Assembly: GCF_007671685.1 (NCBI RefSeq)
Contig: NZ_VCNL01000002.1
Span: 310,001-374,000, forward strand
Reading direction: 5' to 3'
Source of the DNA: Halorubrum salsamenti
GTDB taxonomy: Archaea; Halobacteriota; Halobacteria; Halobacteriales; Haloferacaceae
Length of the DNA stretch: 64,000 bases
This document shows, in pieces, positions 5,479 to 43,777 of this stretch. Each line of letters opens with the position of its first letter. The stretch's first letter is position 1. The notes below the pieces were generated by a model. That model saw only the letters and a list, made by a program, of their open reading frames with translations. It was not told the DNA's origin and searched no databases. A program made the translations under genes and the position numbers.

Positions 5479-5632
5479 AGCCGGACCTCCACAGCGCCTC
5501 GCACACTCACTTTCGATACGCCTCGCACACTGCGTCGCGTTCGTTGCTCACTCATTGGGTTCGTCAAACCGCGTTCACTTGCCGCGCTCCCCAGCACCTC
5601 GTGGCGTATCGCTTCAATCCCGATCTGCGCCG
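5479..5632 (-). other. Structured gap between the two HRAMP nuclease genes
   Basis: This 154-bp gap holds two direct copies of CGCCTCGCACACT (5495-5507 and 5519-5531, period 24) and a 9-bp perfect inverted repeat, CGATACGCC (5514-5522) with GGCGTATCG (5603-5611), extendable to 11 of 12. A transcript of the operon could fold it into a long closing stem. No coding frame with acidic bias was seen. Confidence 0.35.
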
Positions 5633-10698: not shown

Positions 10699-11391
10699 GG
10701 TCGCGTTAAGTTAGAGAATGAGGCGGACGATTTCTGAGTGTCTATGGCAGAATTCGACCGCCTCAGCGAACGTATCGCGTGGATCGACTTGTCGTTTGTG
10801 GAGCGAGATCGAACTCCGCGTTGGGCGATTGAAGTAGGGATCCGCTGTCATTTGGCCGGTATGTCACTGCGTGAGGTAAGTAAACATCTCGAAAGGTTTG
10901 GGATCAAACGGAGTCATGTTGCCATCCATAACTGGGTTCATAAAGCCGATCTACAGCCGATCTCGACCGTCTCCGAGGATCAGCTCGCGGTTGACGAAAA
11001 GATGATCCGCCTCCACGGCCAGAAGTTCTGGCTGTACGGCGCGGTTGATCCACAGACGAACGAGATCCTTCACGTGAGCCTCTATCCGACCGCAAATAAA
11101 CAGACGACGCGATGGTTTCTGACCGATCTACACCAGCGCTATCAGCTCGATAACGTGGAATTTCTCGTCGATGACGCAGACTATCTCGGATCAGTTCTCG
11201 CTGAAGACGGCTATCGATTTCAAGTCATTCAACATGGAAATCGGAATACCATCGAACGTATCTTTTGGGAAATAGAACGACGAACATCATCGTTTGCGAA
11301 TAGTTTCAGCAATATCGAGCTAGAGACAGCTCAAAACTGGCTGGAAGCCGTCGCCGTCTACCACAATTCACGTCAAACTTAACGCGACGAC
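10699..11391 (+). mobile_element. Complete IS6-family insertion sequence
   Basis: About 690 bp. Terminal inverted repeats contain GTCGCGTTAAGTT (10700-10712) and AACTTAACGCGAC (11376-11388). The 7-bp sequence GGTGGCA flanks both ends (10692-10698 and 11392-11398) and looks like a target-site duplication. The transposase stop codon lies inside the right repeat. Good target duplications and an intact gene suggest recent insertion between the HRAMP regulator and the phosphorothioation locus. Confidence 0.8.
10744..11382 (+). CDS. IS6-family DDE transposase
   Basis: A 212-residue DDE transposase of the haloarchaeal IS6 type. The N-terminal helix-turn-helix region (MSLREVSKHLERFGIKRSHVAIHNWVH) is followed by catalytic Asp in LAVDEKMI, Asp in FLVDDADYL and Glu in IERIFWEIERRT. 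Length is typical for the family. The ATG at 10744 was chosen over a GTG two codons upstream. It is flanked by the element's inverted repeats. Confidence 0.9.
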   Translation: MAEFDRLSERIAWIDLSFVERDRTPRWAIEVGIRCHLAGMSLREVSKHLERFGIKRSHVAIHNWVHKADLQPISTVSEDQLAVDEKMIRLHGQKFWLYGAVDPQTNEILHVSLYPTANKQTTRWFLTDLHQRYQLDNVEFLVDDADYLGSVLAEDGYRFQVIQHGNRNTIERIFWEIERRTSSFANSFSNIELETAQNWLEAVAVYHNSRQT

Positions 11392-11597: not shown

Positions 11598-13772
11598 ATG
11601 CCCGATGATGACTCATCTGAGGCCAACCTAGCGTCTCTTTCTCTCAAGCGAAGCTATCGAACTGGTAGCGACCCGCTGAACGAATTCTATGTTCCGTGTC
11701 TATCTCGTGCCGTCAAATACGACCGAGCGGCCGGCTTCTTTGATAGTAAATCGTTGACAGTTGCTGCAAGAGGCATTGCGGGATTGATTCGGAATGGTGG
11801 ATCGATGCGGGTGATCTGTAGTCCCCGCTTCAACGACAACGACTTCGATATACTCCAAAATTTGACTGAGGACGTGGGAGAAAGTGATGTCTTAGAGTCC
11901 GCACTCGCACGGGGAATTGATCCCGAAAATCCAGATGTCGAAGAATATCTACAGACAGACCGATTCAAATGCTTGGCGTGGATGGTAGAGAAGGGCCATT
12001 TAGAAATCAAGGTGGCCTATATGCCGGCAGATAAGGAGAAGAATCCGTATCGGATGTATCACGAGAAGCTCGGGATAATCACTGATGGGAGCGAAAACCG
12101 GGTCGCGTTCACTGGTTCACTTAATGAGACAGAATCTGGGTGGACTGAAAATTATGAATCCTTTGAGGTTTTTCGATCGTGGGTCGGAAATGAAGACGAG
12201 CGGATTCAGGACAAACAGGACGCGTTTGACCGATTGTGGACAGACCAAGACCCCGAAGTAGAGGTATATGACCTCCCAGAGGCAGTCGAACGGAGCGTTA
12301 CTGAGCGAAGTCCCGAGACAGTGGATGGGAAGCCAGCGCTCAATCTGTTCTTGACTGAGGAAGGCTCTAAGACCGACGCCGATGAAATAATGGAATTGTG
12401 GCCACACCAGCAGGAGGCGATCGATTGGTGGCGCGATCACAATTATTGGGGTATCCTCGCGATGGCTACTGGCACGGGGAAAACGTACACAGCACTCCGC
12501 GCAGCACGACTTCAAGCTGATACAAGACTCACAATTATTGTCGTTCCAACAAAAGTGCTGATCGACCAATGGCTCGATGAATTGGTCGATGTGTTTGGTG
12601 AAGACACAGAGATTCTGGAGTGCACAGGGCGTGAAAATTGGCGTGAACAAATTCTCGAAGTTGTCGATCCGTTTCGACTGGGGGACCTTGATCAGATCGC
12701 AAAACGAGATCGAACCGTCCTCATCACAACACCACATACTGCATCTTCAGATGCCTTCCGACGCGCGGTGAAGCACATTCCGGAGAACCGCCTCCAGATG
12801 ATCATTGACGAAGTCCACAATATTGGATCTGAACAATTCCGAAAGACACTCGAAATCGATGCTGGCCGTCGACTTGGACTATCTGCCACCCCAAACCGAC
12901 AGTGGGACGAGGAAGGTACTCGAATTATTTATCAATATTTCGGTGGTCAAGACCCGTTCCGATTTACCACTGAAGAAGCAATTGAAAACGGATACCTAGC
13001 TGAATACGACTACAACCCGTTGTTGTGTGAGTTATCCACCGAAGAGTACGAAGACTATCTCGAGTATACGAAACAGTTGGGTCAAATTGAGGCACAACTC
13101 AAAAGTAGCAAATCCCCCCCACAGCGGCTGTTCGATCGCCGCGAGCAGATACTGCGTGACCGTGCACGAATCAAAAAGCGAGCGATCCGAAAACCTGCAC
13201 GATTCGGAGCCTTCCTCGATAGTGAGCATCCAACACCAGCAATCGTCTTCTGTGAAGATAACGAACAGATCGATGAGCTGCAAAACGAACTAGAGAAACG
13301 AAACAAACGGTACGGTGTCTATGTCTCCGATCGGCCTGAGGAGCAAGCTAATGCATTTCATAAATTCGAGACAGGTGCCATTGACTACCTTCTCGCTATC
13401 CGATGCTTAGACGAAGGAGTTGACGTCCCCGACTGTCCGACTGCTGTAATTATATCAAGCTCGACAAATACACGGGAATTTATCCAGCGGCGTGGTCGGG
13501 TCCTCCGAACCTCGGATCGGAAGGATCACGCTGTCATCTACGATCTGTTTGTACTTCCTGGAATCAATGCTCAGCCGAATGATCCCGCGGCAAAAAAGAT
13601 AATCAAACAAGAGCTCAGACGGGCGAAACTCCTGATGGACGCTGCTCGTAACGGTGATGAGGCCGAAGTCCAGTTAGCGAAGGACCTCGCCGAGTATGGG
13701 GATGGATTCAAATCGCTAGTATATGCTGTTAAGGCTCCAGACGCGTTTGAAGGCTCTCCTTTGGAGAGCTGA
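11598..13772 (+). CDS. Phospholipase-D/helicase fusion, module 1 (Pbe-like)
   Basis: A 724-residue protein. Residues 1-240 are a PLD-type nuclease domain with the HxKxxxxxD motif HEKLGIITD followed by FTGSLNET. The rest is a superfamily 2 helicase: motif I MATGTGKTYT, II IIDEVHNIGS, III LGLSATPN, VI QRRGRVLR. It heads a four-gene unit upstream of dndC and is paralogous to the gene at 23647. It fits the helicase component of the archaeal Pbe antiviral module that works with DndCDEA phosphorothioation, probably acting on unmodified invader DNA. Only one HKD motif is visible, so it would act as a dimer. Confidence 0.8.
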   Translation: MPDDDSSEANLASLSLKRSYRTGSDPLNEFYVPCLSRAVKYDRAAGFFDSKSLTVAARGIAGLIRNGGSMRVICSPRFNDNDFDILQNLTEDVGESDVLESALARGIDPENPDVEEYLQTDRFKCLAWMVEKGHLEIKVAYMPADKEKNPYRMYHEKLGIITDGSENRVAFTGSLNETESGWTENYESFEVFRSWVGNEDERIQDKQDAFDRLWTDQDPEVEVYDLPEAVERSVTERSPETVDGKPALNLFLTEEGSKTDADEIMELWPHQQEAIDWWRDHNYWGILAMATGTGKTYTALRAARLQADTRLTIIVVPTKVLIDQWLDELVDVFGEDTEILECTGRENWREQILEVVDPFRLGDLDQIAKRDRTVLITTPHTASSDAFRRAVKHIPENRLQMIIDEVHNIGSEQFRKTLEIDAGRRLGLSATPNRQWDEEGTRIIYQYFGGQDPFRFTTEEAIENGYLAEYDYNPLLCELSTEEYEDYLEYTKQLGQIEAQLKSSKSPPQRLFDRREQILRDRARIKKRAIRKPARFGAFLDSEHPTPAIVFCEDNEQIDELQNELEKRNKRYGVYVSDRPEEQANAFHKFETGAIDYLLAIRCLDEGVDVPDCPTAVIISSSTNTREFIQRRGRVLRTSDRKDHAVIYDLFVLPGINAQPNDPAAKKIIKQELRRAKLLMDAARNGDEAEVQLAKDLAEYGDGFKSLVYAVKAPDAFEGSPLES

Positions 13773-13839
13773 TGACGCGACTACTTTGTTTCAAATAGCG
13801 TAGTTGACTCCAAAAAACCTGAATGCCAGAGTGGACAAC

Positions 13840-13848
13840 ATTTAGATA
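13840..13848 (+). promoter_or_regulatory. TATA-like box for the small module-1 gene
   Basis: TTTAGATAC is centred 27 bp before the ATG at 13871, the spacing expected for a leaderless haloarchaeal transcript. It supports the internal start of the small gene. Confidence 0.4.
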
Positions 13849-13870
13849 CGCACCAGTTAATGTGCTAGTT

Positions 13871-14074
13871 ATGAGCTATGCGGAAGGAGAGGTTGATGAC
13901 GAAGAAATTCGGAATCTCATCGAAAAATATGCAGAGGAACATTCGGTCCCCGCAGAACTTCTCACCGAGATCTACAGGGCTGAAAGCCAGGTAGTTGGCA
14001 TGGATCGCCGGTCTTCGATTCATAAAGACGTGCAGAAAGCGATCGAATCCTACGTTGAGGACGGAGAAGAATAG
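13871..14074 (+). CDS. Small modification-associated protein, module 1
   Basis: A 67-residue acidic helical protein (MSYAEGEVDDEEIRNL start). The stretch AEEHSVPAELLTEIYRAE and then VGMDRRSSI aligns without gaps to the C-terminal domain of DndC in this same locus (ASKHDVPPKL, then HGMKRRASI), with 13 of 31 positions identical. It resembles proteins named DNA modification system-associated small protein. It may be a stand-alone version of a DndC docking or DNA-binding domain. A longer start at 13823 is possible, but the TATA-like box at 13840 favours this one. Confidence 0.7.
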   Translation: MSYAEGEVDDEEIRNLIEKYAEEHSVPAELLTEIYRAESQVVGMDRRSSIHKDVQKAIESYVEDGEE

Positions 14075-14075
14075 A

Positions 14076-16064
14076 ATGAAAATAACTCAGATACTATTGC
14101 AAAATTTCATGCCCTTCAACGGGGAGGTGACTGTCAATCCATACACCGAGGAAGGTCGTCCGTTGGTTCTCGTAAAGGGAGAGAATGACACCGGGAAGAC
14201 CTCATTGCATACCGCAATCAAATACTGTTTCCACGGGGTCGATGATCGTTCGCTGAGAGATGAATTCATTAACCGCCAAGCAGCCACTGAAGCTGACGGT
14301 ATCTCAAAAGTCGCCATTTCGTTTGAGGCAGATGACGGTGATGTCTATACAATAAAGCGCGGTGTTGAGTTCAGCCAAGTAACCGAGGAAGACGATCGCT
14401 CAGCTGACAAATTCTTTCTTGAAGTGCTTGATGCCGAAGGAAATGAAGTGGTCAGTAGTGATGACCGACGTGACGAATACAGTCGGTTCATCAACCAATT
14501 CATCCCAGATAACGTGGCGGACTTCTTCTTCTTCGATGCAGAACAGCTGGAGAAATTCGAGGAAGCGAATGACGAAGAGGTCCGCGACGCGATCGAAACA
14601 GTGCTCGGAATTAAGGAAATTGAAAACTCGGTTGACGACCTCGAAAAGCGTGAGAAAGAGTATGAACGCGAATACTCAAAGATAGAGTCTACCGTCGCTG
14701 AAGTGCAGCAACTCCAAGAAGAGTTGAATGAAATTCTTGACGAAAAAGACAAGCTGAACGGAACTGAAGAGCAGAAAGGAGAGATCCAGACAAAGAAAGA
14801 TAAGATTGAGACGAAACGTGAGCAGCTCGATGGCATTCAATCCGAGCTTGCAACGATTGAAGAGGGTGATGAGAAACGAGAGAAACTCGAAAAAGTTCAA
14901 GAGGACCTGGATAAGGTTAGTGGGACTCTAGATGACCGAATCGCAGAACGAGACGTTCTCCGGCGTCGTGCGGGACCCCTTGTCGCAGCTAACTGCGCGG
15001 GGACCATCCAGCAGCTGTATGATGTTGAAGGGACAGCTGACGAAGCTTCGGTGATTAATGATATTATCATGAACCGAGATGAATGTCTCTGCGGTCTTAA
15101 TCTGGAAGATAACCCAGAGCATCGGGAGAAACTCACAGAGCGGTGGACAAAGTTGGGATCCTCAGAACGAAAAAAGATTGCAAGTCTTCTCGAGTTAGCA
15201 AACGAGGGTCTGAATATTGGAATTCGAAAAGAACTGGACAGGTATCAGCGACTGCAGTCGGATATCCGCTCTAAGAAGGCACGGTTGGAAGAACTGAGTG
15301 ATGAGGAAGCGGGATTAAAGCAGGACCTCGAAGAGATTGAGCGGGCTCACCTATCGAACCTGAAAGATAGAGAAGAAGAAGTCGAATCGGAGCTTGAGAA
15401 ACTTAAAGAGGAACGAGATGCGCTACAGACCCGGCTCGGCGAACTCAACAACGAACACGATCAGCTGAAAAGCCGGATCTCCAGTCAACAAGAGGCTTCA
15501 TCTGAAGAAGAGAGCTATCAGAAACTTATTGACCTTACGTCACGGTGCCGTGCTGCGATGGAGGACATCCGGTCTGAGCTCGTGGAAAATCGACGAAAGA
15601 CTGTCGAAAAGCATGCCTCAGATACGTTCTTAGAACTTACCAATCGCCCGAATTATTATCGCGGGCTCAAAATCACCGAGAACTACGAGCTTCGGGTGCT
15701 AACTGAGGAATCTGAGCGGTCGATTGCTGAGCAGCGCCCGAGTGAGGGTCAAAAGCAGATCATCGCATACGCATTTATCGCCGGGCTTAGTGAATACGCG
15801 ACCCGGAACGCTCCAGTTGTTGTGGATACACCGATTGGTCGGCTTGACCCGACTCACAAGAATAATCTTCTGGACTACTATCACCGTTTCAGCGATCAAG
15901 TCATGATCCTCTATCAACCCAGTGAGCTCGAGGGAAGCGACATTGAACGGATACGCGAACGAACCTCGAGACACTTCCAGATTACATATCAAAAAGATAA
16001 TCAGAACTCATCCACGATAGCTGAGATGGAACCGTCAGTAGATGCAATTGCGGGGGACGATTGA
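14076..16064 (+). CDS. SMC/DndD-like ATPase, module 1
   Basis: A 662-residue SMC-like ATPase. Walker A is VKGENDTGKTSLHTA, a long coiled coil spans about residues 190-540, the signature is SEGQKQIIAYA and Walker B is VVVDTPIGRLD. A CLCG motif in the middle of the coil resembles half a Rad50 zinc hook. The VDTPxGRLD block is shared with DndD of the same locus, so this is a DndD paralogue. The start is one base after the preceding stop (TAG A ATG). It is the ATPase of the four-gene Pbe-like unit. Confidence 0.8.
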   Translation: MKITQILLQNFMPFNGEVTVNPYTEEGRPLVLVKGENDTGKTSLHTAIKYCFHGVDDRSLRDEFINRQAATEADGISKVAISFEADDGDVYTIKRGVEFSQVTEEDDRSADKFFLEVLDAEGNEVVSSDDRRDEYSRFINQFIPDNVADFFFFDAEQLEKFEEANDEEVRDAIETVLGIKEIENSVDDLEKREKEYEREYSKIESTVAEVQQLQEELNEILDEKDKLNGTEEQKGEIQTKKDKIETKREQLDGIQSELATIEEGDEKREKLEKVQEDLDKVSGTLDDRIAERDVLRRRAGPLVAANCAGTIQQLYDVEGTADEASVINDIIMNRDECLCGLNLEDNPEHREKLTERWTKLGSSERKKIASLLELANEGLNIGIRKELDRYQRLQSDIRSKKARLEELSDEEAGLKQDLEEIERAHLSNLKDREEEVESELEKLKEERDALQTRLGELNNEHDQLKSRISSQQEASSEEESYQKLIDLTSRCRAAMEDIRSELVENRRKTVEKHASDTFLELTNRPNYYRGLKITENYELRVLTEESERSIAEQRPSEGQKQIIAYAFIAGLSEYATRNAPVVVDTPIGRLDPTHKNNLLDYYHRFSDQVMILYQPSELEGSDIERIRERTSRHFQITYQKDNQNSSTIAEMEPSVDAIAGDD

Positions 16065-16540
16065 TGGTCCGAACACTCAAAACATCACGCCAGGATATCT
16101 ATAAACGATTAGTCTCATCATCAGCTGATGATGCAGAGGACGGTAGCGATGACACGGTATTCAAATATAACTACGAATTGTTCAGTCTTGGCGCCATTTA
16201 CGGGTTCCTGAATGGAGAACGTCGGACAGATTACGATGCGATGAGCCAAGATTTCACTACGGTCTCAAACATCGGGAGTGACGAACACCGCCAGACTATC
16301 GATCTAGTCCATCAAATGGTGAAGATCGAAACGGGGAGGACAGATGAGTCAGAAATCTGGGAAGCAGTACTCGAGTACGCAGACGGTGGAGCTGAACTCA
16401 TCAACGAATTGGTAAAGACGCAAGGCGATTTCGATCTTGTAGGTGTCGTTGAAGATGCCGAAACAGAAGCATGGGAGCCTCGATTAATTGATGCTGTTGG
16501 CGATCCTCAAGAATTAGAAGGAGTCCGACCACGTAGGTGA
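16064..16540 (+). CDS. Conserved hypothetical protein, module 1 fourth gene
   Basis: A 158-residue acidic protein with no recognised fold. It begins at an ATG overlapping the preceding stop (TGATG). The layout, with an aromatic/small segment YELFSLGAIYGFLNGERR and later LEYADGGAELINELVK, parallels the 153-residue protein at 27781 (YYFAAMVGIKARDRE, then LSDYGKQLLNCYAE). Both close four-gene units of identical order, so it is probably the fourth Pbe-type component. Its function is unknown. Confidence 0.65.
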   Translation: MVRTLKTSRQDIYKRLVSSSADDAEDGSDDTVFKYNYELFSLGAIYGFLNGERRTDYDAMSQDFTTVSNIGSDEHRQTIDLVHQMVKIETGRTDESEIWEAVLEYADGGAELINELVKTQGDFDLVGVVEDAETEAWEPRLIDAVGDPQELEGVRPRR

Positions 16541-16829
16541 GCAGATCACTCCCGAGGAGTTATCGCCGCCTCGTTGTAACCGAAATAAGTTAACTCTGCG
16601 ATCGATTAGCTAGTAGGCAACATTATTAATATCCCAACAGAAAGAGAAGAAAATAAACGTACAGAGGAAAGCTATGGCGCTCAGCTGTCTGATTCAGATA
16701 TGATTATACCAGTTTTTGATGAATGAATAAATATCGGACTCAATATCTGCTGGAGGTCTATATTCGCAAGATCACGGTCGGTTCCTCAGGGATAGGTTCA
16801 AGTGTCTCCTCGACTACCGCCAAGACAAC

Positions 16830-18335
16830 ATGGGAACGACGAGTGGGGACCCCGAATCTGCCAGCTCCGATTCCGATTCGGGCCCTGATATTGATACCTC
16901 CGTCTTTGAGTATCGCGACCTCGAAGAGATACATAAAGAGATTCAGGAAACATACCTAGCCGATGACCGTCCGTGGGTGATTGGATACAGTGGAGGGAAA
17001 GACTCCACTACCACCCTCCAACTCATCTGGTATGCTATCTCCGAGCTCTCCAAGGAACAGCTGGACAAGCCCATTTATGTAATATCCAGCGATACACTCG
17101 TTGAGACCCCCAAAATTGTTAATCATATAACGTCAACCCTTGATAAAATAAATGAATATGCGGAAAAAGAGGATCTCCCATTCGAAGCGCACAAGGTATA
17201 CCCCGATGTGTCAGATTCATTCTTTGTCAATCTTATTGGTCGCGGATATCCCGCCCCAAATCAGACTTTCCGATGGTGCACTGACAGACTAAAAATCGAC
17301 CCAGCAGATAACTTCATATTGGATAAAGTATCGGAACATGGAGAAGTAATTGTTACTCTCGGCGCACGGAAGGCTGAATCGGCGACGCGTGAGCAGGTGA
17401 TGAATCTCCACAGCATCGAGGGCTCGAACCTCTCTCGACACTCAAAATTTGCAAATGCATTTGTTTTCACTCCCATTGAAGATTGGATTGTCGATGACGT
17501 CTGGGACTACCTGCTCCAGGTAGAGTGTCCATGGGGGAAAGACAATCGAGACCTTGCAGCACTGTATCAGGAGGCGGATGATGAGTGCCCGATGGTGATC
17601 GATACGAGTACCCCGTCATGTGGGAACAGTCGGTTCGGCTGTTGGACGTGTACAGTCGTCGAGGAAGACAAAGCCATGGAGAACATGATCGACGCGGGTG
17701 ACGACTGGATGGAGCCGCTGCTCGAGTTCCGGGATCTCCTCAAACGGACCCAAGACCCCGAAAAGAAGCCGAAGTTCCGTGAAATGAAGGGTAGACGGTT
17801 CGGCGATATCCGAGAAAAAACAAACGGTGGTGAGGGAATCATCCCCCGGACATACAAACTGGAGTTCCGAAAGCACCTGCTTCGTAAGCTCCTAGAGACA
17901 GAAAGAGAAGTTAATGAGCGCAAAGATCCTGATGAGGAGTACTTAGACCTCATCCGAGATGCTGAACTGAAAGAGATTCGCCGCCTCTGGCGGGAGGAGG
18001 AAGCAGATTGGGAGGACTCAGTTCCCCGCATCTACAATGATGTGATGGGGGAACATCTCGATTGGATTCAAGACGATCTGGGATCGTTCAGTGCGGAAGA
18101 AGCCGAGATTCTGGAAGAGGTGGCTTCGAAGCACGATGTTCCGCCAAAGTTGGTAAAACGCCTCCTCGACGTTGAACTCCGTCACCACGGTATGAAGCGC
18201 CGTGCGTCGATCTACAATAAGATCGATGGCGTGTTCAAAGAAGACTGGCGGACGACAGCGGAAGTCGTCGAGGATTTCGATGGTGAAGATGCTGATGACT
18301 GGGAATACGATATAAAGTATGAGGAGTTGATATAA
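16830..18335 (+). CDS. dndC: DNA phosphorothioation sulfurtransferase DndC
   Basis: A 501-residue PAPS-reductase-like enzyme that activates and transfers sulfur in backbone phosphorothioation. The PP-loop motif is GYSGGKDSTTTLQ near residue 54. Conserved Cys are in FRWCTDRLK and in CGNSRFGCWTC, fitting the 4Fe-4S site of DndC. Residues 423-473 form an extra domain that aligns with the 67-residue protein encoded at 13871. The start at ATG 16830 gives an acidic leader before the conserved FEYRDLEEIHKEI region. The stop overlaps the dndD start (TAATG). Confidence 0.92.
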   Translation: MGTTSGDPESASSDSDSGPDIDTSVFEYRDLEEIHKEIQETYLADDRPWVIGYSGGKDSTTTLQLIWYAISELSKEQLDKPIYVISSDTLVETPKIVNHITSTLDKINEYAEKEDLPFEAHKVYPDVSDSFFVNLIGRGYPAPNQTFRWCTDRLKIDPADNFILDKVSEHGEVIVTLGARKAESATREQVMNLHSIEGSNLSRHSKFANAFVFTPIEDWIVDDVWDYLLQVECPWGKDNRDLAALYQEADDECPMVIDTSTPSCGNSRFGCWTCTVVEEDKAMENMIDAGDDWMEPLLEFRDLLKRTQDPEKKPKFREMKGRRFGDIREKTNGGEGIIPRTYKLEFRKHLLRKLLETEREVNERKDPDEEYLDLIRDAELKEIRRLWREEEADWEDSVPRIYNDVMGEHLDWIQDDLGSFSAEEAEILEEVASKHDVPPKLVKRLLDVELRHHGMKRRASIYNKIDGVFKEDWRTTAEVVEDFDGEDADDWEYDIKYEELI

Positions 18336-20416
18336 TGCGGATCCAGCGAATCGTCCTCACAGATTACGGTCCATATGGTGGCCACAACGAGATCAATCTT
18401 GAAACGACCAAAGACCGTCCAATCATTCTCTTCGGTGGACAAAATGGGTCCGGGAAGACAACCCTGTTTAATGCGATACAGATCTGTCTCCATGGACGAA
18501 GTGCTTTCGAGGAGACGCTGAGCCGGCGCGAATACGAGGAGCGAATGCAGGCCCTACTCCACGAGTCGGGCGGCCAAAAGGCCGAAGAGGCATCGATCCG
18601 CCTAGAGTTTGAATATACAGATTTCGGCCAAACAGAGCGGTATACCGTTGAACGATCGTTCCGTGACAGAGGCAAGAGTCTGGTCGAGGACGTCTCGATT
18701 CGTCGTGATGGAAGCGAGCTAAGTGAACTTGAGGAAGAGCAGTGGGAAGATTTTCTCAAGGAACTCATTCCACCGGGGATCTCACAGCTGTTTTTCTTCG
18801 ACGGCGAGAAGGTCGAAAACCTTGCCAAGGCCATCGAGGACGACAGCAGCTTTACAGAGTCGCTGATGTCTCTACTCGGATTGGACTTGGTCGAACAACT
18901 CGAGAACGATATGACCGTGTATCGGTCTCACAAGCTTGATGAAGACGGTCATGAGGAGCTTGCTGCTGAGATTGATGAATATCGAGAGAATATTGAGCAG
19001 GCCGAAACCGAAAAGTCACAGCTCGAAGACAAAATCGAGCGCAAAACCAAAGAGTTCGAAAATATTGAGGCGGAGATCGAATCGGCAGAACAACAACTCG
19101 CAGAAGAGGGAGGGACCTTCGCGGAGAAGCGTGATGAATACAAAGAGAGACGCACTGAGCTCCGCACCGAGATCACCAGGCTAAAAGAAGATATACGGGA
19201 TATTGCAACTGGCAGCTACCCGTTCGCACTTGCTCCAGGACTCTGCAGGGATGTGATTGAGCGGCTTGAAAACGAGAGCAAGATTTCCCAACAACAAGCG
19301 GCCCGCTCGGAAGCAGTCAACGCGCTTAGTGATGTTGCTGAGGATGACGCTGTCTGGGGAGACCTGGATGTCCCAGAAGGAGCTTCCACAGAGGTTGTCG
19401 AGCGTCTGCAAGATGCACTTTCCGAGCAACTTACTCCAGAGAATGTTCCAGAATACGAACTCTCAAGTGAGTTCTCTCAACGTGAGCAGCAGGAGATGAC
19501 GAACGCTGTCAACCGCGCACTCAATGAAATTCCAGGCGAGCTTCAGGAGTTAACAGACGAGCTCGAAAAGAAGATGAGTGAGCTGAATGATGTGGAGGCA
19601 AAAATCTCGAACGCTCCCGATCAAAGCGTTATTGCTCCGCAGCTCAAGAAAATCAACGAGCTAAATAAAAAGCGAGGCGAGCTCGAATCGGAGGTTGAAA
19701 AGCATCGAGAACGGCTCGAGCAGGTTGAAAATAACCTGAGCCGACTTAATTCGGGTCTGGAAAACCGTCTTGATAGACAGGACGAATTCGATGATATCTC
19801 CCGTCGTGCTGACTTATCGATGAAGGTCCAGGAGACGATTAGGGATTACCGTGAGACACTCACTAATGAAAAATTAGATCGGCTTGAAGATGTTTTGACC
19901 GATCGTTATCTTGAATTGTCAAACAAATCTGAGTTCTACGAGCAAGTTATCGTAGACAAAGAAGATACGACAATCTACATCGAAACACAGGCCGGGGATA
20001 CAAAACACCAATCCCAGCTCTCAGCTGGCGAACGGCAAATATTTGCAACGGCCCTCCTGTGGGCACTGGCAGATATCTCTGGAAGGCCACTCCCGTTCAT
20101 CATTGATACACCACTGGGGCGGCTTGACAAAGAGCATCGATCCCGCCTCGTGGAGAACTTCTTCCCGAAAGCCTCCCATCAGGTGTTCTTGTTCTCTACT
20201 GACACGGAGATCACCGACACGTATCATGACGAGTTGCAACAGTACATCGCCGCTGAGTTCAAATTAGAGAATAGCCAGGAGACCGGTGAGACGACCATCT
20301 CTGCAGGTTACTTCAATATAGATTCAGAAGACGCGGTGCAGGATGAGAACCGATACAGAGTCTCGTCATCAGAGAATCCAAATCAAGTAGACATCGAGGG
20401 GTACACAGATGACTGA
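18335..20416 (+). CDS. dndD: DNA phosphorothioation ATPase DndD
   Basis: A 693-residue SMC-like ATPase. The N-terminus MRIQRIVLTDYGPYGGHNEI and FGGQNGSGKTTLFNA (Walker A) are typical of DndD. A long coiled coil fills the middle, the signature is LSAGERQIFATALLWALAD, and Walker B is FIIDTPLGRLD. DndD is thought to alter DNA structure or supply energy during sulfur insertion. It overlaps both neighbours, indicating tight translational coupling (TAATG with dndC, 8 bases with dndE). Confidence 0.93.
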   Translation: MRIQRIVLTDYGPYGGHNEINLETTKDRPIILFGGQNGSGKTTLFNAIQICLHGRSAFEETLSRREYEERMQALLHESGGQKAEEASIRLEFEYTDFGQTERYTVERSFRDRGKSLVEDVSIRRDGSELSELEEEQWEDFLKELIPPGISQLFFFDGEKVENLAKAIEDDSSFTESLMSLLGLDLVEQLENDMTVYRSHKLDEDGHEELAAEIDEYRENIEQAETEKSQLEDKIERKTKEFENIEAEIESAEQQLAEEGGTFAEKRDEYKERRTELRTEITRLKEDIRDIATGSYPFALAPGLCRDVIERLENESKISQQQAARSEAVNALSDVAEDDAVWGDLDVPEGASTEVVERLQDALSEQLTPENVPEYELSSEFSQREQQEMTNAVNRALNEIPGELQELTDELEKKMSELNDVEAKISNAPDQSVIAPQLKKINELNKKRGELESEVEKHRERLEQVENNLSRLNSGLENRLDRQDEFDDISRRADLSMKVQETIRDYRETLTNEKLDRLEDVLTDRYLELSNKSEFYEQVIVDKEDTTIYIETQAGDTKHQSQLSAGERQIFATALLWALADISGRPLPFIIDTPLGRLDKEHRSRLVENFFPKASHQVFLFSTDTEITDTYHDELQQYIAAEFKLENSQETGETTISAGYFNIDSEDAVQDENRYRVSSSENPNQVDIEGYTDD

Positions 20417-20795
20417 CAAATTCAACCGGGTCAGCCTCGATTCGGATGTCACAAACAAACTGGAGCGAATCCAAGAAGTAACACAGCTGACACCCAACTT
20501 TATTGCTCGTATTGGGTTGTGCTATTCGCTTAATGAACCGCGTGCCCCAAACACGGCCCAGTACGACACTGAGGGCCAAACAATCAATCGGTACACGCTA
20601 CTCGGCGAACACGACGCACTGTACATGGCACTGGTCCGTCAACGAATGCTAAATGAAGGGCGTGATCCGGATGAAGATCTTTATGACTATTTCTTAGCCC
20701 ATCTGAACCGCGGCGTCGGGACATTATCCGGGCGGCTCAGTGGACTTGATGATCTTCAAGAGTTGATACCCGATGAACTGAAACAAGAGGAGTGA
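20409..20795 (+). CDS. dndE: DNA phosphorothioation protein DndE
   Basis: A 128-residue protein typical of DndE in length and pattern: LDSDVTNKLERIQEVTQLTPNFIARIGLCYSL, and the conserved LAHLNRGVGTLSG near the C-terminus. DndE binds nicked double-stranded DNA and is essential for modification. It starts inside the last codons of dndD and precedes dndA by 12 bases. Confidence 0.9.
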   Translation: MTDKFNRVSLDSDVTNKLERIQEVTQLTPNFIARIGLCYSLNEPRAPNTAQYDTEGQTINRYTLLGEHDALYMALVRQRMLNEGRDPDEDLYDYFLAHLNRGVGTLSGRLSGLDDLQELIPDELKQEE

Positions 20796-20807
20796 GATTG
20801 GGTCGAT

Positions 20808-21989
20808 ATGAGCGCGGATAACGCAGGAATCTATCTTGACCATCATGCGACGACACCTACGGACCAGCAAGTCGTTGATGTGATGGAATCTGCATTTACG
20901 ACAGAGTACGGAAATCCCGCCAGTCGAACAAATCATAAAGCTGGCCAAGACGCCCATGAGCTGGTCAGTGCTGGGCGTCATCAGCTAATGGATGCGCTCG
21001 GGGCAACCCGTTCAGAAGAAATCATTTTTACGAGCGGTGCAACTGAGTCGGACAATCTCGCTCTCAAAGGAGCGATGCGAGAGGCTCAGAAACAGAACGA
21101 GGGAAACCACCTTATCACTGCTGCTACTGAGCATGAAGCGGTATTAGAAGCGTGTGAGTCCCTGAAAGAAGATGGATTCGAGGTGACGATCCTTCCCGTG
21201 GATGAGCATGGACTGGTCGATCCAGATGCCGTTGAGGCTGCTATCCGTGATGAGACCGTGCTCGTCTCAATCATGGCCGCAAACAATGAGGTTGGAACGA
21301 TTGCTCCGCTTGAGGAGATCGGTCTTATCACCGACGAGCACGATGTACTCTTTCATACGGACGCTGTCCAAGCTGTCGGGTATGTCGATTTAGATGTCGA
21401 TAGCCTGAATCTCGACATGATGTCTATTTCTGGACATAAGATCTACGGTCCCAAGGGAGTAGGTGCGCTCTATGTCCGGTACGGAGCCGCTCATCTTGAA
21501 CCGCTATTCCACGGCGGGGGCCACGAACGGGGGTGGCGGTCTGGAACGCTGAATGTGCCTGGTATCACAGGGTTGGGCAAAGCGATCGAACTCGCAGTCG
21601 AAGAACGTCCAGCGCGTACAGAAGATGTTGGATCACTACGAGACCACTTTCAAGAACGACTCATTGACGAGGTTGATGATGTGCTTGTGAATGGCCATCC
21701 CGATCAGCGGTTACCCAACAACCTCAACATGAGCATCCTTGGGACGAATGACCAGCGTCTGGTTGCGAGATTGAGTGAAGACGGTGTCTACGCCGCAACG
21801 GGCTCTGCCTGTTCAACGATGGAAACGACAGAATCGCATGTGCTAACAGCCATGTTCGATGACCAGGACCGGATTCAATCGTCTGTGAGATTCGGATTCG
21901 GGAAAGAAAACACACTGAAAGAAGTCGATGAAGCAGTGGATATTGTCAAACAGAACGTGAACCGGCTGCGAAAGTTCAGTTCGTTTTGA
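20808..21989 (+). CDS. dndA: Cysteine desulfurase DndA
   Basis: A 393-residue PLP-dependent class V aminotransferase-fold cysteine desulfurase. It opens with IYLDHHATTPTDQQV. The PLP-binding Lys is in SGHKIYGPKGVG, the catalytic Cys is in ATGSACSTM, and a His before it is in ATEHEAV. It supplies persulfide sulfur to DndC. Being last in dndCDEA matches the archaeal arrangement, where dndA lies within the cluster. No dndB regulator is present. Confidence 0.92.
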   Translation: MSADNAGIYLDHHATTPTDQQVVDVMESAFTTEYGNPASRTNHKAGQDAHELVSAGRHQLMDALGATRSEEIIFTSGATESDNLALKGAMREAQKQNEGNHLITAATEHEAVLEACESLKEDGFEVTILPVDEHGLVDPDAVEAAIRDETVLVSIMAANNEVGTIAPLEEIGLITDEHDVLFHTDAVQAVGYVDLDVDSLNLDMMSISGHKIYGPKGVGALYVRYGAAHLEPLFHGGGHERGWRSGTLNVPGITGLGKAIELAVEERPARTEDVGSLRDHFQERLIDEVDDVLVNGHPDQRLPNNLNMSILGTNDQRLVARLSEDGVYAATGSACSTMETTESHVLTAMFDDQDRIQSSVRFGFGKENTLKEVDEAVDIVKQNVNRLRKFSSF

Positions 21990-22421
21990 GCGGGGAGAAT
22001 CTTCAGAATCTCAGAGGCTCCAGAAACATTTATGCGGACCTAGTGGTTCCAACCGCGTCAGACAAAGGTCGATATGCTTCGGTGCCAACGTGGATGCGCG
22101 ATCGTTGTCGTTACTGGTGCGATTTTATTCCAGCGAGCCTGTCGCAAACGCGGCCACGATGTCAAATTCGAACGACATAAAGATTAGAATAGAGCTGAGC
22201 GTTTTTGTGAGGTGAAACACAGAATTACCAATTTCAAATTCATTTAACAAAACCGAACAGAATTTGGAAATGAGTGACTCAGATCGTCGTCAGTGTATAG
22301 GGGCCGCTGACCTAAATATTGCCAATATCATTACCAAAAAAGTCAAGTATATTTACACTGACTTTATTCTCATGTTACTAACAACTACATACTCTGGCCG
22401 ACTTGATGTCTTTCGCTGATC
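21990..22421. other. Gap between dndA and the TFB-like gene
   Basis: About 430 bases, AT-rich toward the TFB gene. A 37-codon frame at 22074-22187 contains two Cys and a hydrophobic core but lacks acidic bias; I do not call it a gene. The last 120 bases contain several TATA-like stretches (for example TATATTTACA near 22350), so the downstream module probably has its own promoter. Confidence 0.45.
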
Positions 22422-23642
22422 ATGGACTCTACAGACGACATCAATCAGCAGCTGGATGATATGCTCCTTGACGATTTAGTCGACGCAGAGGAAGAATTGA
22501 ATGACGGTGCCGGTGCTGGAACTCTGACACCTGGGCAAACCGTATACGAAGAGAGACGTGAGGAAATTGTCGATTCTGAGCTCGCGCGCCTCGCAGAGGA
22601 GCTGGGGATCGAAGAGTCCACTCGGACGACAGCAAAATCACTTTTCGATCAGTTTGCCAATGAGGAAGAAATCTATGGGCATGCGCTTGAAGTGCTCGCA
22701 GCTGCCTGCCTCTATACGGCGTGCAAAGTCGAGTCAATTCCTCTGAGTCCGGACGATTTTGCTGCGGTGCCCCAGACGGCCTGTACGCGAGTGATCTTGT
22801 TGCGGCGGGTCAAAGAAATCTCTCATACCCTGGGACTGGACCCTAGCGCGTTCTTCGATCCACATGGCTATACCGACCGGTACTGTGATGAACTCGGGTT
22901 GAGTGAGCAAACCACAGAGCGTGCACATGAGGTGATCGATGTAGCAGATAACGCCGGTATTGGTGGAGGGAAAAGCCCAACTGGTCGTGCAGCCGCCGCG
23001 ATCTACAATGCAGTACTCGATCATAATCTTAAGGTGACACAGTCGGATATTGCAAACGTCGCAGACGTCTCCGAAGTAACGATCAGGAACCGATATCGAG
23101 AACAGCGCGAGTTGCTGACAGAAGTCACTGATTACCGCCCAAGTGGCGATTCGGTCGATGATTCGTCTGAAGACGATGGATCCACTCTCGATGATTCGTC
23201 TGAAGACGATGGATCCACTCTCGATGATTCGTCTGAAGACGATGGATCCACATCACACGGTGGCGAGTCTGGCAGCCCGACTGTTTCGGAATCAACCGAG
23301 ACGGGTCAAAAAGAGATGTCTGTAGACTCGCAACAGGAGATGGCCCAGTATATCGGTGATGCTGTGGCGGAAAACATCGCAACTGCTCTCAGGAGGCTCG
23401 ATGACACACCGGAAGAACTGGAGGCACAGACGTTGGATGCCTGTCAACGCATCAATGACCCGCAGCCGCAAAGGTGGTTCGGGACCGATGAGGTGACACT
23501 TGCGTTGGCGATTATTCGCTTTGCCAGCGAGGAGCTCGGAGACCCGATTTCGCGTGCAACACTTGAGGGCACGCTCGATGGTGGAAACTACCAGATATAC
23601 CATGTTACAAAGACTGTGGCAGATAAGGTCAAACAACGGTAG
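22422..23642 (+). CDS. TFB-like cyclin-fold protein within the dnd locus
   Basis: A 406-residue protein. Residues about 50-235 form two cyclin repeats of the archaeal TFB/TFIIB type (ALEVLAAACLYTACKVESIPLS in the first, GRAAAAIYNAVLDHNLKVTQSDIANVADVSEVTIRNRY in the second). The N-terminal zinc ribbon of canonical TFB is absent; an acidic segment replaces it. A triple 11-residue repeat DDSSEDDGSTL links to a C-terminal domain of about 110 residues that I do not recognise. It probably acts as a dedicated transcription factor or a TFB-derived regulator for the following module. Confidence 0.75.
   Translation: MDSTDDINQQLDDMLLDDLVDAEEELNDGAGAGTLTPGQTVYEERREEIVDSELARLAEELGIEESTRTTAKSLFDQFANEEEIYGHALEVLAAACLYTACKVESIPLSPDDFAAVPQTACTRVILLRRVKEISHTLGLDPSAFFDPHGYTDRYCDELGLSEQTTERAHEVIDVADNAGIGGGKSPTGRAAAAIYNAVLDHNLKVTQSDIANVADVSEVTIRNRYREQRELLTEVTDYRPSGDSVDDSSEDDGSTLDDSSEDDGSTLDDSSEDDGSTSHGGESGSPTVSESTETGQKEMSVDSQQEMAQYIGDAVAENIATALRRLDDTPEELEAQTLDACQRINDPQPQRWFGTDEVTLALAIIRFASEELGDPISRATLEGTLDGGNYQIYHVTKTVADKVKQR
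23157..23251 (+). repeat. 33-bp in-frame tandem repeat in the TFB-like gene
   Basis: Copies begin at 23157, 23190 and 23223 (the third is partial). The first two are identical over 33 bases and encode DDSSEDDGSTL. Perfect identity implies recent slippage, so copy number is likely to vary between strains. Confidence 0.85.
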
Positions 23643-23646
23643 ATAG

Positions 23647-25635
23647 ATGCAAGACAACCAGCCATCTCAGAGATCAGGGAGACTTCGCGACATCGAATAT
23701 TCGCTCCTCTACGAGACAGCGACCGCAGACCTCATCGATGACTTCTACACACCGAGTTTAGAGGCCGCGAGTGAGTACAAGCGGGCAGTGGGCTACTTCA
23801 CCAGCAGTTGGTTCGAAGAGGCAGCTGCTGGCATTGCAGCGTTTGCCGACAATGGCGGCACCGCAAAGTGGATTATCAGTCCAAAGCTCACCGAGGATGA
23901 TTGGAGCGCTATCGAACACGGTGACGCCGCCAAACGAGATCCGTCACTGTACGAGCAAATGGAGACGCTCGTCGACGATCTAGAATCCAATCTCCAACAG
24001 GACACTCAGAACACAATTGCATGGCTCATCGCTGATGGGCTACTTCGCATCCGTATCGCCGTGACTGACGAGGCACTTGGTGGAGACTTCCACGACAAGT
24101 GGGGTATCTTCATCGACGGTGAAGACAAGGTCGCGTTCCACGGCTCGCAAAATGATAGCCGCAAGAGCCTCTCAAATTACGAGGCGAATTCCGTGTTCAC
24201 TTCTTGGGGGGCGCCTATTGACCAGCAACGAGTCGCCCAACACGAAGACCGGTTCGACAATATCTGGGGCAATACAAAACCGGGCGTCCACTCGTTTAGT
24301 CTCCCAGATAGCATTTCACTCGGAATTGCCGAGCTTCGCAGTTCTGACCGACCATATAATGATCCTGGCGAGAAAACAAAGCTCACCAGCCCTTATCGCT
24401 GGCGCCATCAGGAAGAGGCCGTGGAGGCGTTTCTGGAGGCGAAGACAGGGTTGCTCGATATGGCGACTGGAACCGGCAAGACCCGGACGTCGCTGAAGAT
24501 TATTGATCAGCTCCTGCGAGACGATGCGATCGGAACGCTGGTTATTGCCACTCGTGGAAACGACTTGCTGAATCAGTGGAATGAAACGGTACTTGACCAC
24601 TTCTCTGCCGAGGAGATGTTTCTCTACCGGCAGTACAGCAGTCACAAAGAGCTTGGGAGTTACCTCATGAACGACAGCGAGCGGTTAGATATCCTGCTCA
24701 CCTCCTATGCCAATCTGGAGGACGCAATTGACGGCGATATGGATGACAAGCTCGCCAAAGGGTTGTTGATCTGTGACGAGGTGCATAATATCGGCGCTCA
24801 AGGGAAACAGGAGGCGCTTGGTGGGAAACTCGATGTTTTCCCGTATCGGTTGGGCCTGAGCGCAACTCCCTTCGATCCGTATGATCCCGACCGGAATGAG
24901 TTCATCCGAAATGAGATGGGCCCGGTGGTGTACGAGTTCGGACTGGAGCCAGCGATCAAGCGGGGTATTCTGACTGAATTCGATTACACGCCGATTACCT
25001 ACGAACTCTCGGAGGAAGACAAGGCCCGACAAAAAAAGCAATTTAAGAAGTTCGCTGGGCTGAAACGGCAGAATCCGTCCGTCCCTCAGAGCCAACTGTA
25101 CATCATGCTTTCACGGGTCCGCAAGGAATCCGAAGAGAAGTTACCGAAGTTCCAGCGTCATCTCGAGCTTAACCCCGAGGTTCTTGAAAACGCAATCATC
25201 TTCGTCGCCTCGAAGGATTACGGCACGAAGGTTCAGGAGATTATCTACGATTATGTCGATGATTTCCATACCTACTACGGCGAAGATGACGAGTCCAAGC
25301 TCGACGAATTCTCGACAGGCAAACTGTCGACGCTCGTCACGAGCAAGGCCATTTCAGAAGGGATCGACATCCAGTCAGTCAAAAATATCATCCTCTTCTC
25401 CGCCCCCCGTTCGAAGGGGACAACGACCCAGCGCATCGGCAGAGCGCTCCGAAAAGATCCATCCAACCCAGACAAAAGGGCTAATGTGATTGACTTTGTA
25501 GTGAAAAATGATATTGAACAGAAAATAATGGACGACGACGACGGCGCCGATGGGGCAGGTGAAGACATGAAACCGCCGGACCGAGAGCGATACGAGTGGC
25601 TTACAAGGCTCAACAAGGTAACACAACAAGAGTAA
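23647..25635 (+). CDS. Phospholipase-D/helicase fusion, module 2 (Pbe-like)
   Basis: A 662-residue paralogue of the gene at 11598. The PLD domain carries HDKWGIFID with FHGSQNDS after it. Helicase motifs are I MATGTGKTRTS, II ICDEVHNIGA, III LGLSATPFD and VI QRIGRALRKDP. The N-terminal halves match in layout (LIDDFYTPSLEAASEYKRAVGYF against LNEFYVPCLSRAVKYDRAAGFF). It opens the second four-gene unit, five bases after the TFB-like gene, and likely forms part of the restriction arm of the phosphorothioation system. Confidence 0.8.
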   Translation: MQDNQPSQRSGRLRDIEYSLLYETATADLIDDFYTPSLEAASEYKRAVGYFTSSWFEEAAAGIAAFADNGGTAKWIISPKLTEDDWSAIEHGDAAKRDPSLYEQMETLVDDLESNLQQDTQNTIAWLIADGLLRIRIAVTDEALGGDFHDKWGIFIDGEDKVAFHGSQNDSRKSLSNYEANSVFTSWGAPIDQQRVAQHEDRFDNIWGNTKPGVHSFSLPDSISLGIAELRSSDRPYNDPGEKTKLTSPYRWRHQEEAVEAFLEAKTGLLDMATGTGKTRTSLKIIDQLLRDDAIGTLVIATRGNDLLNQWNETVLDHFSAEEMFLYRQYSSHKELGSYLMNDSERLDILLTSYANLEDAIDGDMDDKLAKGLLICDEVHNIGAQGKQEALGGKLDVFPYRLGLSATPFDPYDPDRNEFIRNEMGPVVYEFGLEPAIKRGILTEFDYTPITYELSEEDKARQKKQFKKFAGLKRQNPSVPQSQLYIMLSRVRKESEEKLPKFQRHLELNPEVLENAIIFVASKDYGTKVQEIIYDYVDDFHTYYGEDDESKLDEFSTGKLSTLVTSKAISEGIDIQSVKNIILFSAPRSKGTTTQRIGRALRKDPSNPDKRANVIDFVVKNDIEQKIMDDDDGADGAGEDMKPPDRERYEWLTRLNKVTQQE

Positions 25636-25638
25636 TAC

Positions 25639-25836
25639 ATGAGTGATGATTTCCCCTTTGAGGACATTGCCTCCGACGTTCTCAGAGAGCACGACCAGGA
25701 TAACGCGTTTAAAACTCGCTTTGTTGGCTTTTGCGAGAACGCGATGCAAGGGAGTGCAGAAGACGGCGACTTGACCAGACTAATTAACAACGTGACACTC
25801 ACCGAGGAGGATACAGCTGATGAATCTACGAATTGA
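25639..25836 (+). CDS. Small protein of module 2
   Basis: A 65-residue acidic protein three bases after the helicase gene, overlapping the ATPase gene by 17 bases. It holds the same slot as the small protein at 13871. Resemblance to that protein is only suggestive: a His, then Glu about 15 residues later, then Gly five residues on (REHDQDNA, then CENAMQG). It may be a diverged member of the same family or a functional substitute. Confidence 0.6.
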   Translation: MSDDFPFEDIASDVLREHDQDNAFKTRFVGFCENAMQGSAEDGDLTRLINNVTLTEEDTADESTN

Positions 25837-27778
25837 GGAGATTCGCTACGAGAATATTCGTGATATCGGGAGTCTTCATCTTGAATTTACAAAGCCGGGC
25901 ACGAGCGAGCCACGACATATCTCACTCGTGCAGATGCCCAACGGGACGGGGAAAACCACGACTATGGGGCTTATTCGGCATCTGATCCTTGGCTCAGAGC
26001 TCGACGACGAGACTGTGATGGGATATGAGCCCGAGACTGGTGCCTCAGAAGGTGAATTTACTATTGGCTTCGCCGCCGGTGATGATCGGTTCCGGATCCA
26101 CATGGATCTTGATTACGACCTAGGGACTGTTGGTTACCGCCACTCGTACCCGCAGCGAGAAGATGGCGGAATGAACAGCGGCCACTTCCTACCGCTAGAA
26201 TTAGAGAACATCCTTACAGAGGAATTTGTCGACCTCTTCGTTTTCAACGGCGAACTGACGGACGACTTCATCGAAACTGGTGAGAACAAAGCTGAGAATG
26301 CGCTGAAGATCGTAACCCGCTTAGACCGGGTTGAGGCGCAGCGAGCAGCTATCGAGCGTGTTGTGGAAGAACAGCAGGAAGAGGACGGAGCCAAGACAGA
26401 GCAGGGTCTGAAACAGGTCAAATCCCTGCTCGAAAATCGAGAAGATCGACTTGCTCGTCTCAAAGAGACTCGAGATCGTCTAGAAGACGAGATCAGTGAA
26501 CACGACTCCACAATCGAGAGTCTCAAAGAAGAGCGTGAGAAGATCATCTCGAAAGATAAGGAAGCCCTCAAGAAATATCAGGAATACCAAGACGAAATCA
26601 AGGAGCTCGAGACAACCCTGCAGACCAACTCGGCGAGTCTGCTTGATGATATGCGAGTCCCCAGTAAACTCTCATCCAGCTTTCACGAGGACTTTACCAC
26701 GCTTCTCGAGCACATGCGGGTCCTCAGATTGCCTAAATCTACGTCAAAGGAATTTTTCTCTGAGCTTGCTGAGCAGGATACCTGCGTCTGTGGGCGGGAC
26801 CTCGATGAAAAACACCGCGATGAGATCCGAGAGAACGCTGAGCGGTTCCTCTCAGACGAAGACGTCGGCGTCCTTAATGCGCTAAAGGAACGATTGGGGA
26901 GTATTAGCGAGCCGGTGGCACTGGACGAGGAGTTAGAGGAACTGCGAGAGACTCGCAAAGAGCTCAAAAAATACCAGACGCAGCGCGATCAATTGGGCCT
27001 CAGTGATGAAAATCTTGAAGAGAAAAAACAGGATCTGACCAGGCAGATCGAGTCTGAAAAGACAGATCGTGAGAACAAAGAACGAAAAGTCGAGCTCCTC
27101 ACCACCGACGACAAAGGTCTCAGACAGCGACATAATCTTGACTGGGAGAAGAATATCCCCGAGGCGAAGCGAGAGGTCACAAAGTACAAAGAGAAGGTTG
27201 AGGCTGCGACTGACACTGTTACGTTTAGCGCACAAGCAGAGAAGCTGGACATGATCCTCGATGATTTCGTCAGCCAAGCCGTCGCGGAGGTGAAGCGTGA
27301 CCAGATCAACAAAACGAACCAGCGGCTCAGCCGGATTCTCAAGCGCTCTAGCGTACAGATTGACTCGATCGATGATTCGATAAATCTCAAGAACAAGAGC
27401 GGTTCCTCAGAAGGTCAATCGCTGGCTGTCGCCTACGCATATCTCTCAACCCTGTTCGAAGGATCGGCGGTAGACATGCCATTCGTCATCGATAGCCCGG
27501 CGGTGAGCTTGGACCACAAGGTTCGGAGCGAAGTCGCACCAATCATTTCGCAGTTGTTCGATCAAGTTATCGCGTTCATTATCTCGACAGAAAAAGAGGG
27601 ATTCGTTGAGAATCTTGAGCCAGCCACTGACAACGATATTAACTACTACACCGTGTACAAAACAGACTCGCCCGGCGAACTGCGGATGCATGATGACAAG
27701 GACTTCTTCATGGATTTCACATCCGAGGAGGAGGAAGACGGCGATAGCCGGATGCAGTCCGCTACGGAGGGTGAGTAA
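25820..27778 (+). CDS. SMC-like ATPase, module 2
   Basis: A 652-residue SMC/RecN-like ATPase. Walker A is VQMPNGTGKTTTMGL, a coiled coil spans about residues 180-480, the signature is SEGQSLAVAYAYL and Walker B is FVIDSPAVSLD. A CVCGRDL motif in the coil parallels CLCGLNL of module 1. The Walker B region has diverged from DndD (no GRLD). It overlaps the small gene and ends two bases before the next gene. It is the ATPase of the second Pbe-like unit. Confidence 0.8.
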   Translation: MNLRIEEIRYENIRDIGSLHLEFTKPGTSEPRHISLVQMPNGTGKTTTMGLIRHLILGSELDDETVMGYEPETGASEGEFTIGFAAGDDRFRIHMDLDYDLGTVGYRHSYPQREDGGMNSGHFLPLELENILTEEFVDLFVFNGELTDDFIETGENKAENALKIVTRLDRVEAQRAAIERVVEEQQEEDGAKTEQGLKQVKSLLENREDRLARLKETRDRLEDEISEHDSTIESLKEEREKIISKDKEALKKYQEYQDEIKELETTLQTNSASLLDDMRVPSKLSSSFHEDFTTLLEHMRVLRLPKSTSKEFFSELAEQDTCVCGRDLDEKHRDEIRENAERFLSDEDVGVLNALKERLGSISEPVALDEELEELRETRKELKKYQTQRDQLGLSDENLEEKKQDLTRQIESEKTDRENKERKVELLTTDDKGLRQRHNLDWEKNIPEAKREVTKYKEKVEAATDTVTFSAQAEKLDMILDDFVSQAVAEVKRDQINKTNQRLSRILKRSSVQIDSIDDSINLKNKSGSSEGQSLAVAYAYLSTLFEGSAVDMPFVIDSPAVSLDHKVRSEVAPIISQLFDQVIAFIISTEKEGFVENLEPATDNDINYYTVYKTDSPGELRMHDDKDFFMDFTSEEEEDGDSRMQSATEGE

Positions 27779-27780
27779 CG

Positions 27781-28242
27781 ATGGCCTTCCGACTCAGTGA
27801 TACCGCCCGCGAGTACTTCGATAATATCGAGGAGACAAGTTCCACAGGCGAATTCGACAGTATGTGGGACAAGTATTACTTCGCAGCGATGGTCGGAATC
27901 AAGGCTCGAGATCGTGAGGTCACTAACGATGAGCCAACGGCCGATCCATTCGTCGAAGGCGTTATTGAGGACTACCAGGACCAGAAGTTCGAGATCTACG
28001 CTGCGCTCATTACCGCCGAAATTGATCGCCAAAATATTCCCCAAGATGCAGAAGACGAAATCCGCGAGCTCATGCTAAGTATCCTTGATTCAAGTGACCC
28101 GACACAGCTGTCGGACTACGGTAAACAGCTACTCAACTGCTATGCCGAGCGTGGTCATAAACGCCTGCGAGATGCTGGCCCCGCCCCCACGGAATTCGAC
28201 GAATTCCTCCGGAAGTACCACAAGGTGCTCGAGCAGGCGTAG
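27781..28242 (+). CDS. Conserved hypothetical protein, module 2 fourth gene
   Basis: A 153-residue acidic helical protein (MAFRLSDTAREYFDNIEE). Segment FDSMWDKYYFAAMVGIKARDRE and a later LSDYGKQLLNCYAERG mirror the fourth protein of module 1. No catalytic motif is visible. It ends the locus on this strand and is followed by an AT-rich gap of 272 bases without a recognised gene. Confidence 0.65.
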   Translation: MAFRLSDTAREYFDNIEETSSTGEFDSMWDKYYFAAMVGIKARDREVTNDEPTADPFVEGVIEDYQDQKFEIYAALITAEIDRQNIPQDAEDEIRELMLSILDSSDPTQLSDYGKQLLNCYAERGHKRLRDAGPAPTEFDEFLRKYHKVLEQA

Positions 28243-29468: not shown

Positions 29469-29470
29469 AC

Positions 29471-43758: not shown

Positions 43759-43777
43759 GTCTTCTCTTGGTTCACCA

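Follow-up and report, generated by a model that had tools for sequence, protein, structure and literature searches.

Among the described defence systems linked to phosphorothioate (PT) modification of DNA, PbeABCD of H. jeotgali A29 depends on PT and keeps viral DNA from being replicated (Xiong et al., 2019, PMC6459918). The published DndCDEA–PbeABCD locus contains one four-gene cassette following dndCD, and 25 strains are reported to carry pbeAC along with dndFGH and PT genes (Xiong et al., PMC6459918). In the main text of Rakesh et al. (2024, PMC10853773), PbeABCD is placed as a subset of one kind of CxC ABC-ATPase/DndE system, a group that is mixed and matched with Dnd systems; the authors argue that an ATPase–DndE pair scans DNA and an HKD nuclease cleaves it, and they doubt that CxC systems act as no more than PT-dependent restriction modules. 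The text of these key Pbe and CxC papers describes a single such module at each locus (PMC6459918, and PMC10853773 as far as its main text goes). The use of one PT operon by two effectors is known from another system, SspABCD, with which SspE and SspFGH are compatible and give additive protection, differing in trigger or outcome on the one PT mark; both effectors occur in 36 genomes (PMC8092258).

Here we analyse a 64,000-nucleotide stretch of Halorubrum salsamenti DNA (the window) in which a single dndCDEA operon is flanked by two Pbe-type modules of different lineages. On the + strand, module 1 (11598–16540) is followed by dndCDEA (16830–21989), a TFIIB-like gene that an earlier sequence-only reading of this DNA had overlooked between dndA and module 2 (22422–23642), and module 2 itself (23647–28242; Table 1). 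All named open reading frames of both modules and of dndCDEA are intact and lie on one strand. The flanking of dndCDEA by two such modules, already recognized in the sequence-only reading, is thus borne out by intact reading frames and family matches, as is the common gene order of the two flanks: PLD/helicase, small protein, CxC-hook ATPase and a protein of about 155 residues (153 in module 2). Overlaps and short gaps between the genes suggest three transcription units, namely module 1, dndCDEA, and the TFIIB-like gene with module 2. Both kinds of module were already known; their double arrangement is rare, and is undescribed in the text of the papers cited above.

Table 1. Genes of the double-module dnd locus, with positions in the window and the matches on which each assignment is based.
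Feature	Position	Strand	Evidence
Module 1 pbeA, PLD (HKD) nuclease/SF2 helicase fusion	11598..13772	+	PADLOC PbeA 715 bits; PLDc_2, ResIII, Helicase_C
Module 1 pbeB, small protein	13823..14074	+	PADLOC PbeB 121 bits; PF20306 Sp-DndD 40.8 bits
Module 1 pbeC, ABC ATPase, CLCG hook, DTPIGRLD	14073..16064	+	PADLOC PbeC 1071 bits; start ATG 14073
Module 1 pbeD	16061..16540	+	PADLOC PbeD 224 bits
dndC	16830..18335	+	TIGR03183 569 bits, above cut-off
dndD	18335..20416	+	TIGR03185 484 bits, above cut-off
dndE	20409..20795	+	TIGR03184 81.7 bits; cut-off 71.85
dndA, cysteine desulfurase-type aminotransferase	20808..21989	+	PF00266 263 bits
TFIIB-like protein without zinc ribbon	22422..23642	+	PF00382 94.9 bits; no zinc-ribbon match
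Module 2 PbeA-type PLD/helicase	23647..25635	+	PADLOC PbeA PDLC02703 586 bits; catalytic motifs intact
Module 2 small protein, 65 aa, Sp-CxC type	25639..25836	+	PF20304 20.5 bits (cut-off 27.5), E 5e-4
Module 2 CxC-hook ABC ATPase, CVCG, DSPAVSLD	25820..27778	+	best PADLOC PbeC model 79 bits
Module 2 PbeD-position protein, 153 aa	27781..28242	+	probable distant PbeD-family homology through intermediates

Module 1 is a standard PbeABCD cassette, with the A-B-C-D order beside dndCDEA and family-level PADLOC matches for all four proteins. In its PbeA the PLD motifs (HxKx4D and GSxN) and the helicase motifs (GTGKT and DEVH) are all intact by motif alignment. Module 1 and the dnd operon comprise the same genes as the published DndCDEA–PbeABCD system, with family matches for 4/4 Pbe proteins (PMC6459918), and differ from it in two ways: module 1 lies upstream of dndC, whereas the published cassette follows dndCD, and the one four-gene cassette of the published locus is replaced here by two of different lineages. 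Unlike the ATPases of modules 1 and 2, DndD lacks a CxC hook in the motif alignment.

Module 2 probably belongs to the Sp-CxC lineage, as a system of the same broad kind as PbeABCD. No PbeB (Sp-DndD) homologue was detected in it, its place being taken by a small protein that is probably of the Sp-CxC family, so we do not file module 2 as PbeABCD in the strict sense. The Halorubrum orthologue of this small protein in genome G027 matches PF20304 with 68.4 bits, and a plasmid of Halorubrum trapanicum carries an orthologue annotated by the Sp-CxC name. With its PLD/SF2 helicase, putative Sp-CxC protein, CxC-hook ATPase and fourth small gene near dnd, module 2 resembles the CxC ABC-ATPase/DndE systems (PMC10853773; PF20304). 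The main text of that paper has no case of a dnd operon adjoined by two CxC-type modules from different lineages. The module 2 ATPase has Walker A and B motifs, the signature and the CVCG hook, and its seven haloarchaeal orthologues share 44–64% identity with it. Motif alignments show that both modules keep the PLD (HxKx4D and GSxN), helicase (GTGKT and DEVH) and ATPase (Walker A, signature and CxC hook) motifs.

The 153-residue protein at the PbeD position of module 2 (D2) gave no meaningful match among Pfam, PADLOC (PbeD included) or NCBIfam models. A profile combining the PbeD of module 1 with an intermediate PbeD-like family (D3) nevertheless matched it (hhalign probability 82%, E 1e-5, 137 columns). 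Its predicted structure, built from a 13-sequence alignment (pLDDT 87.9; an earlier model from seven sequences was poor, with pLDDT 63), has a strand-helix-helix unit twice, the layout given for DndE proteins in the main text of Rakesh et al. (PMC10853773). A fold search with this model gave DndE of E. coli B7A (4lrv) by far the highest TM-scores (0.36 on query length, 0.48 on target length), but with E 9.3; all others scored at most 0.21 TM by query length, and no match was significant. Sequence profiles of D2 and DndE showed no similarity.

How are the two modules related? Their PbeA proteins are 28% identical, and profile comparison joins the PbeA pair (hhalign E 2e-79) and the PbeC pair (E 1e-23) directly, gives a short match only for the PbeD pair, and finds no match between the two small proteins. 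The sequence-only reading had called the modules paralogous and had named a lack of profile homology as evidence against that view. Homology does hold for PbeA and PbeC, and probably for PbeD through intermediates; it is undetectable for PbeB, and duplication in place has to be given up. In the ATPase and helicase trees, which that reading had proposed, there are indeed two distinct modules, each of which forms its own fully supported lineage rather than a local pair of paralogues, with the bacterial members grouping with module 2. DNA similarity between the modules is absent beyond chance; recent duplication of one module is thus ruled out by the trees and the DNA comparison together. The two are old, separate lineages, each with relatives elsewhere, and homologous only deeply. 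The DTPxGRLD block that had been credited to module 1 alone is present there as DTPIGRLD; module 2 carries a homologous variant, DSPAVSLD, that retains the Asp residues of Walker B and of the D-loop. We also considered whether the module 1 ATPase is phylogenetically nearer to DndD than to the ATPase of module 2, as similarity scores would have it; the tree is unrooted, and we dropped this claim of kinship.

We surveyed 391 Halobacteria genomes, using the same set for the module 1 ATPase, the module 2 ATPase and dndC. The module 1 ATPase was found in 11 of them (matches of at least 272 bits), the module 2 ATPase in eight (at least 534 bits) and dndC in 18. Each of the eight module 2 ATPases belongs to an intact four-gene cassette, and each cassette lies beside dndCDEA. 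The neighbourhoods of the 18 dndC genes hold type 1 alone in eight genomes, type 2 alone in five, a third type in two and types 1 and 2 together in three; these counts sum to 18, so every dndC genome has at least one Pbe-type module nearby, while the type of module changes freely. A fixed double system is ruled out, most loci being single: of the 16 dnd loci in haloarchaea where type 1 or type 2 occurs, 13 have one only, so that a Pbe locus need not contain both units. The sequence-only reading had named the opposite outcome, Pbe loci that all contain both, as evidence against its own proposal of two modules. In genome G030 (L081, 1248–4217), besides module 1, dndC is immediately preceded by a gene for a 989-residue protein weakly similar to PbeA.

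Complete pairs of types 1 and 2 occur in two of the 391 genomes, the window's own and G183; the third double genome, G221, is incomplete, with a B-C-D set that lacks PbeA and lies about 10 kb away. In G183 the two modules stand in tandem and are convergent with dnd, an arrangement unlike that of the window. Their tree partners also differ, module 1 of the window grouping with G030, G255 and G298 and that of G183 with G137, and module 2 of the window with G215 and that of G183 with G234 and G221. The two complete pairs thus arose independently. Against all 391 genomes the overlap of types 1 and 2 exceeds chance (p 9e-4); within the 18 dnd genomes it does not exceed expectation (three observed, 4.9 expected, p 0.14), which gives no hint that the pair is selected for. 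Exchange of effectors is evident from the modification operons themselves: dndD is nearly identical in G215 and G027, the module 2 copies of which differ in subclade and orientation, and a related dnd operon, that of G173, is accompanied by the third module type. Near-identical dnd operons therefore sit beside different modules, and modification operon and effector travel separately.

Outside the Halobacteria, a scan of genome contigs found at least six bacterial loci with module 2 A, C and D genes (26–31% identity). Among the matches listed, five of the six (L074–L078) have dnd genes beside the module 2 genes; in one of these, L078, other ORFs break up the ATPase gene. The sixth (L079, Rubrivivax) shows no dnd gene within 13.8 kb, just about 2 kb of which lies downstream of the ATPase. 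A double module suspected in the cyanobacterial locus L074 was rejected, since what lies upstream is a gene for a methyltransferase-like protein and one for an isolated D3-like protein. Five plasmid records contain the module 2 ATPase, from Halorubrum trapanicum, Priestia megaterium, Methylobacterium bullatum and two Rhizobium. By their annotation, module 2 accompanies dndCDEA on the H. trapanicum plasmid, adjoins dptF, dptG and dndBCDE on that of P. megaterium, and adjoins dndBCDE on that of Rhizobium sp. NXC14. In M. bullatum (NZ_LR743510.1, about 392640–400617) both ATPase queries match within about 8 kb; the second ATPase, some 6 kb from that of module 2, is related to module 1 or DndD.

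We think it probable that the two modules are PT-dependent effectors sharing one modification operon, with additive or complementary protection. The dndCDEA proteins would place PT on host DNA, and the two separately acquired modules would each read or depend on this mark. Module 1 would block the replication of unmodified viral DNA, as PbeABCD does elsewhere. In each module the ABC ATPase and its PbeD partner may scan DNA, on which the helicase/PLD nuclease would then act, with the small protein as a putative regulator. Self DNA would be marked by the same PT for both modules, so that additive or complementary protection would be the most likely outcome; for module 2, antiviral action, PT dependence and additivity are what we infer. 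SspABCD with SspE and SspFGH offers a parallel in having one PT modification operon and two effector modules, and differs in having other modification genes and effectors that are unrelated, whereas here the two are homologous (PMC8092258). That the two modules might confer two specificities, one of the options raised by the sequence-only reading, finds no support in a locus with a single modification complex and no second target to be seen.

Several points count against the reading of two PT-dependent effectors: the two types co-occur within dnd genomes no more than expected, Rakesh et al. doubt a simple PT dependence of CxC systems (PMC10853773), and the far-diverged ATPase of module 2 makes a different action possible. 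A reading with two outcomes or triggers is one that we hold to be unlikely: one module would quietly block viral replication, and the other would stand in reserve, killing or arresting the cell upon failure of the first or loss of PT. The deep divergence of the ATPase, small protein and PbeD-position protein is in keeping with it, as are the precedent of SspE and SspFGH on one PT mark (PMC8092258) and the zinc-ribbon-less TFIIB gene abutting module 2, which could give separate control; the catalytic motifs, however, are the same in both modules. Less probable still is that the modules were stacked by chance in a defence island, one of them having arrived recently and contributing little or nothing. 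Frequent module exchange, a co-occurrence within dnd genomes that is not above expectation, a transposase gene that shortly precedes module 1 and an area rich in defence-like genes would all fit such stacking, but no gene is disrupted, and the pairing has at least two origins.

The TFIIB-like gene ends 4 bp before module 2, and encodes two cyclin repeats and a long C-terminal extension. No such gene lies beside module 2 in any of the other seven module 2 loci in Halobacteria. Its nearest relatives in the genus (G111 and G148; 46–47% identity, N-terminus included) sit about 5.5 and 15 kb, respectively, from Pbe-like modules. The protein is possibly a local regulator, judging by its domains and position. 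It seems very unlikely that module 2 forms a second layer guarding module 1, under its own control by this protein and acting, perhaps by stopping the cell, when a virus overcomes module 1 or PT. The least probable reading is one larger system, in which proteins of both modules assemble into mixed complexes, each module being incomplete by itself here: the modules are close together, on the same strand and share a mark, but each type stands alone with dndCDEA elsewhere (type 1 in eight genomes, type 2 in five), each module has its own A-B-C-D set with motifs intact, and the window and G183 pairs differ in gene arrangement.

With two PT-dependent effectors on one modification operon as the preferred reading, the locus is a natural setting in which to ask whether PT effector modules can stand in for one another and whether their effects add up, combining one mark with two homologous, anciently split modules, and relatives of the host group have genetic tools. 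The module 2 lineage is poorly covered by PADLOC models.

Several other features of the surroundings were observed. The window's genome contains a further Pbe-like A-C-D set (L098, 7981–12728, on contig C20 of G000), with no dnd genes nearby. An IS240-type transposase gene (10738–11382) lies just upstream of module 1. Positions 28515–30793 encode a putative O-methyltransferase (PF20553, Methyltransf_35) and a GHKL-type ATPase (PF13589), which may form a further defence pair. On the minus strand, genes at 4603–9749 encode HNH, RNase H-like and weakly Cmr3-like proteins and are possibly a RAMP-type defence cluster. In G148, of the same genus, comparison of the sequences by eye found a protein like the product of 8802–9749 near a Pbe-like module without dnd, and one like the product of 42517–43803 further along. 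The region thus resembles a shared defence island with changing contents.
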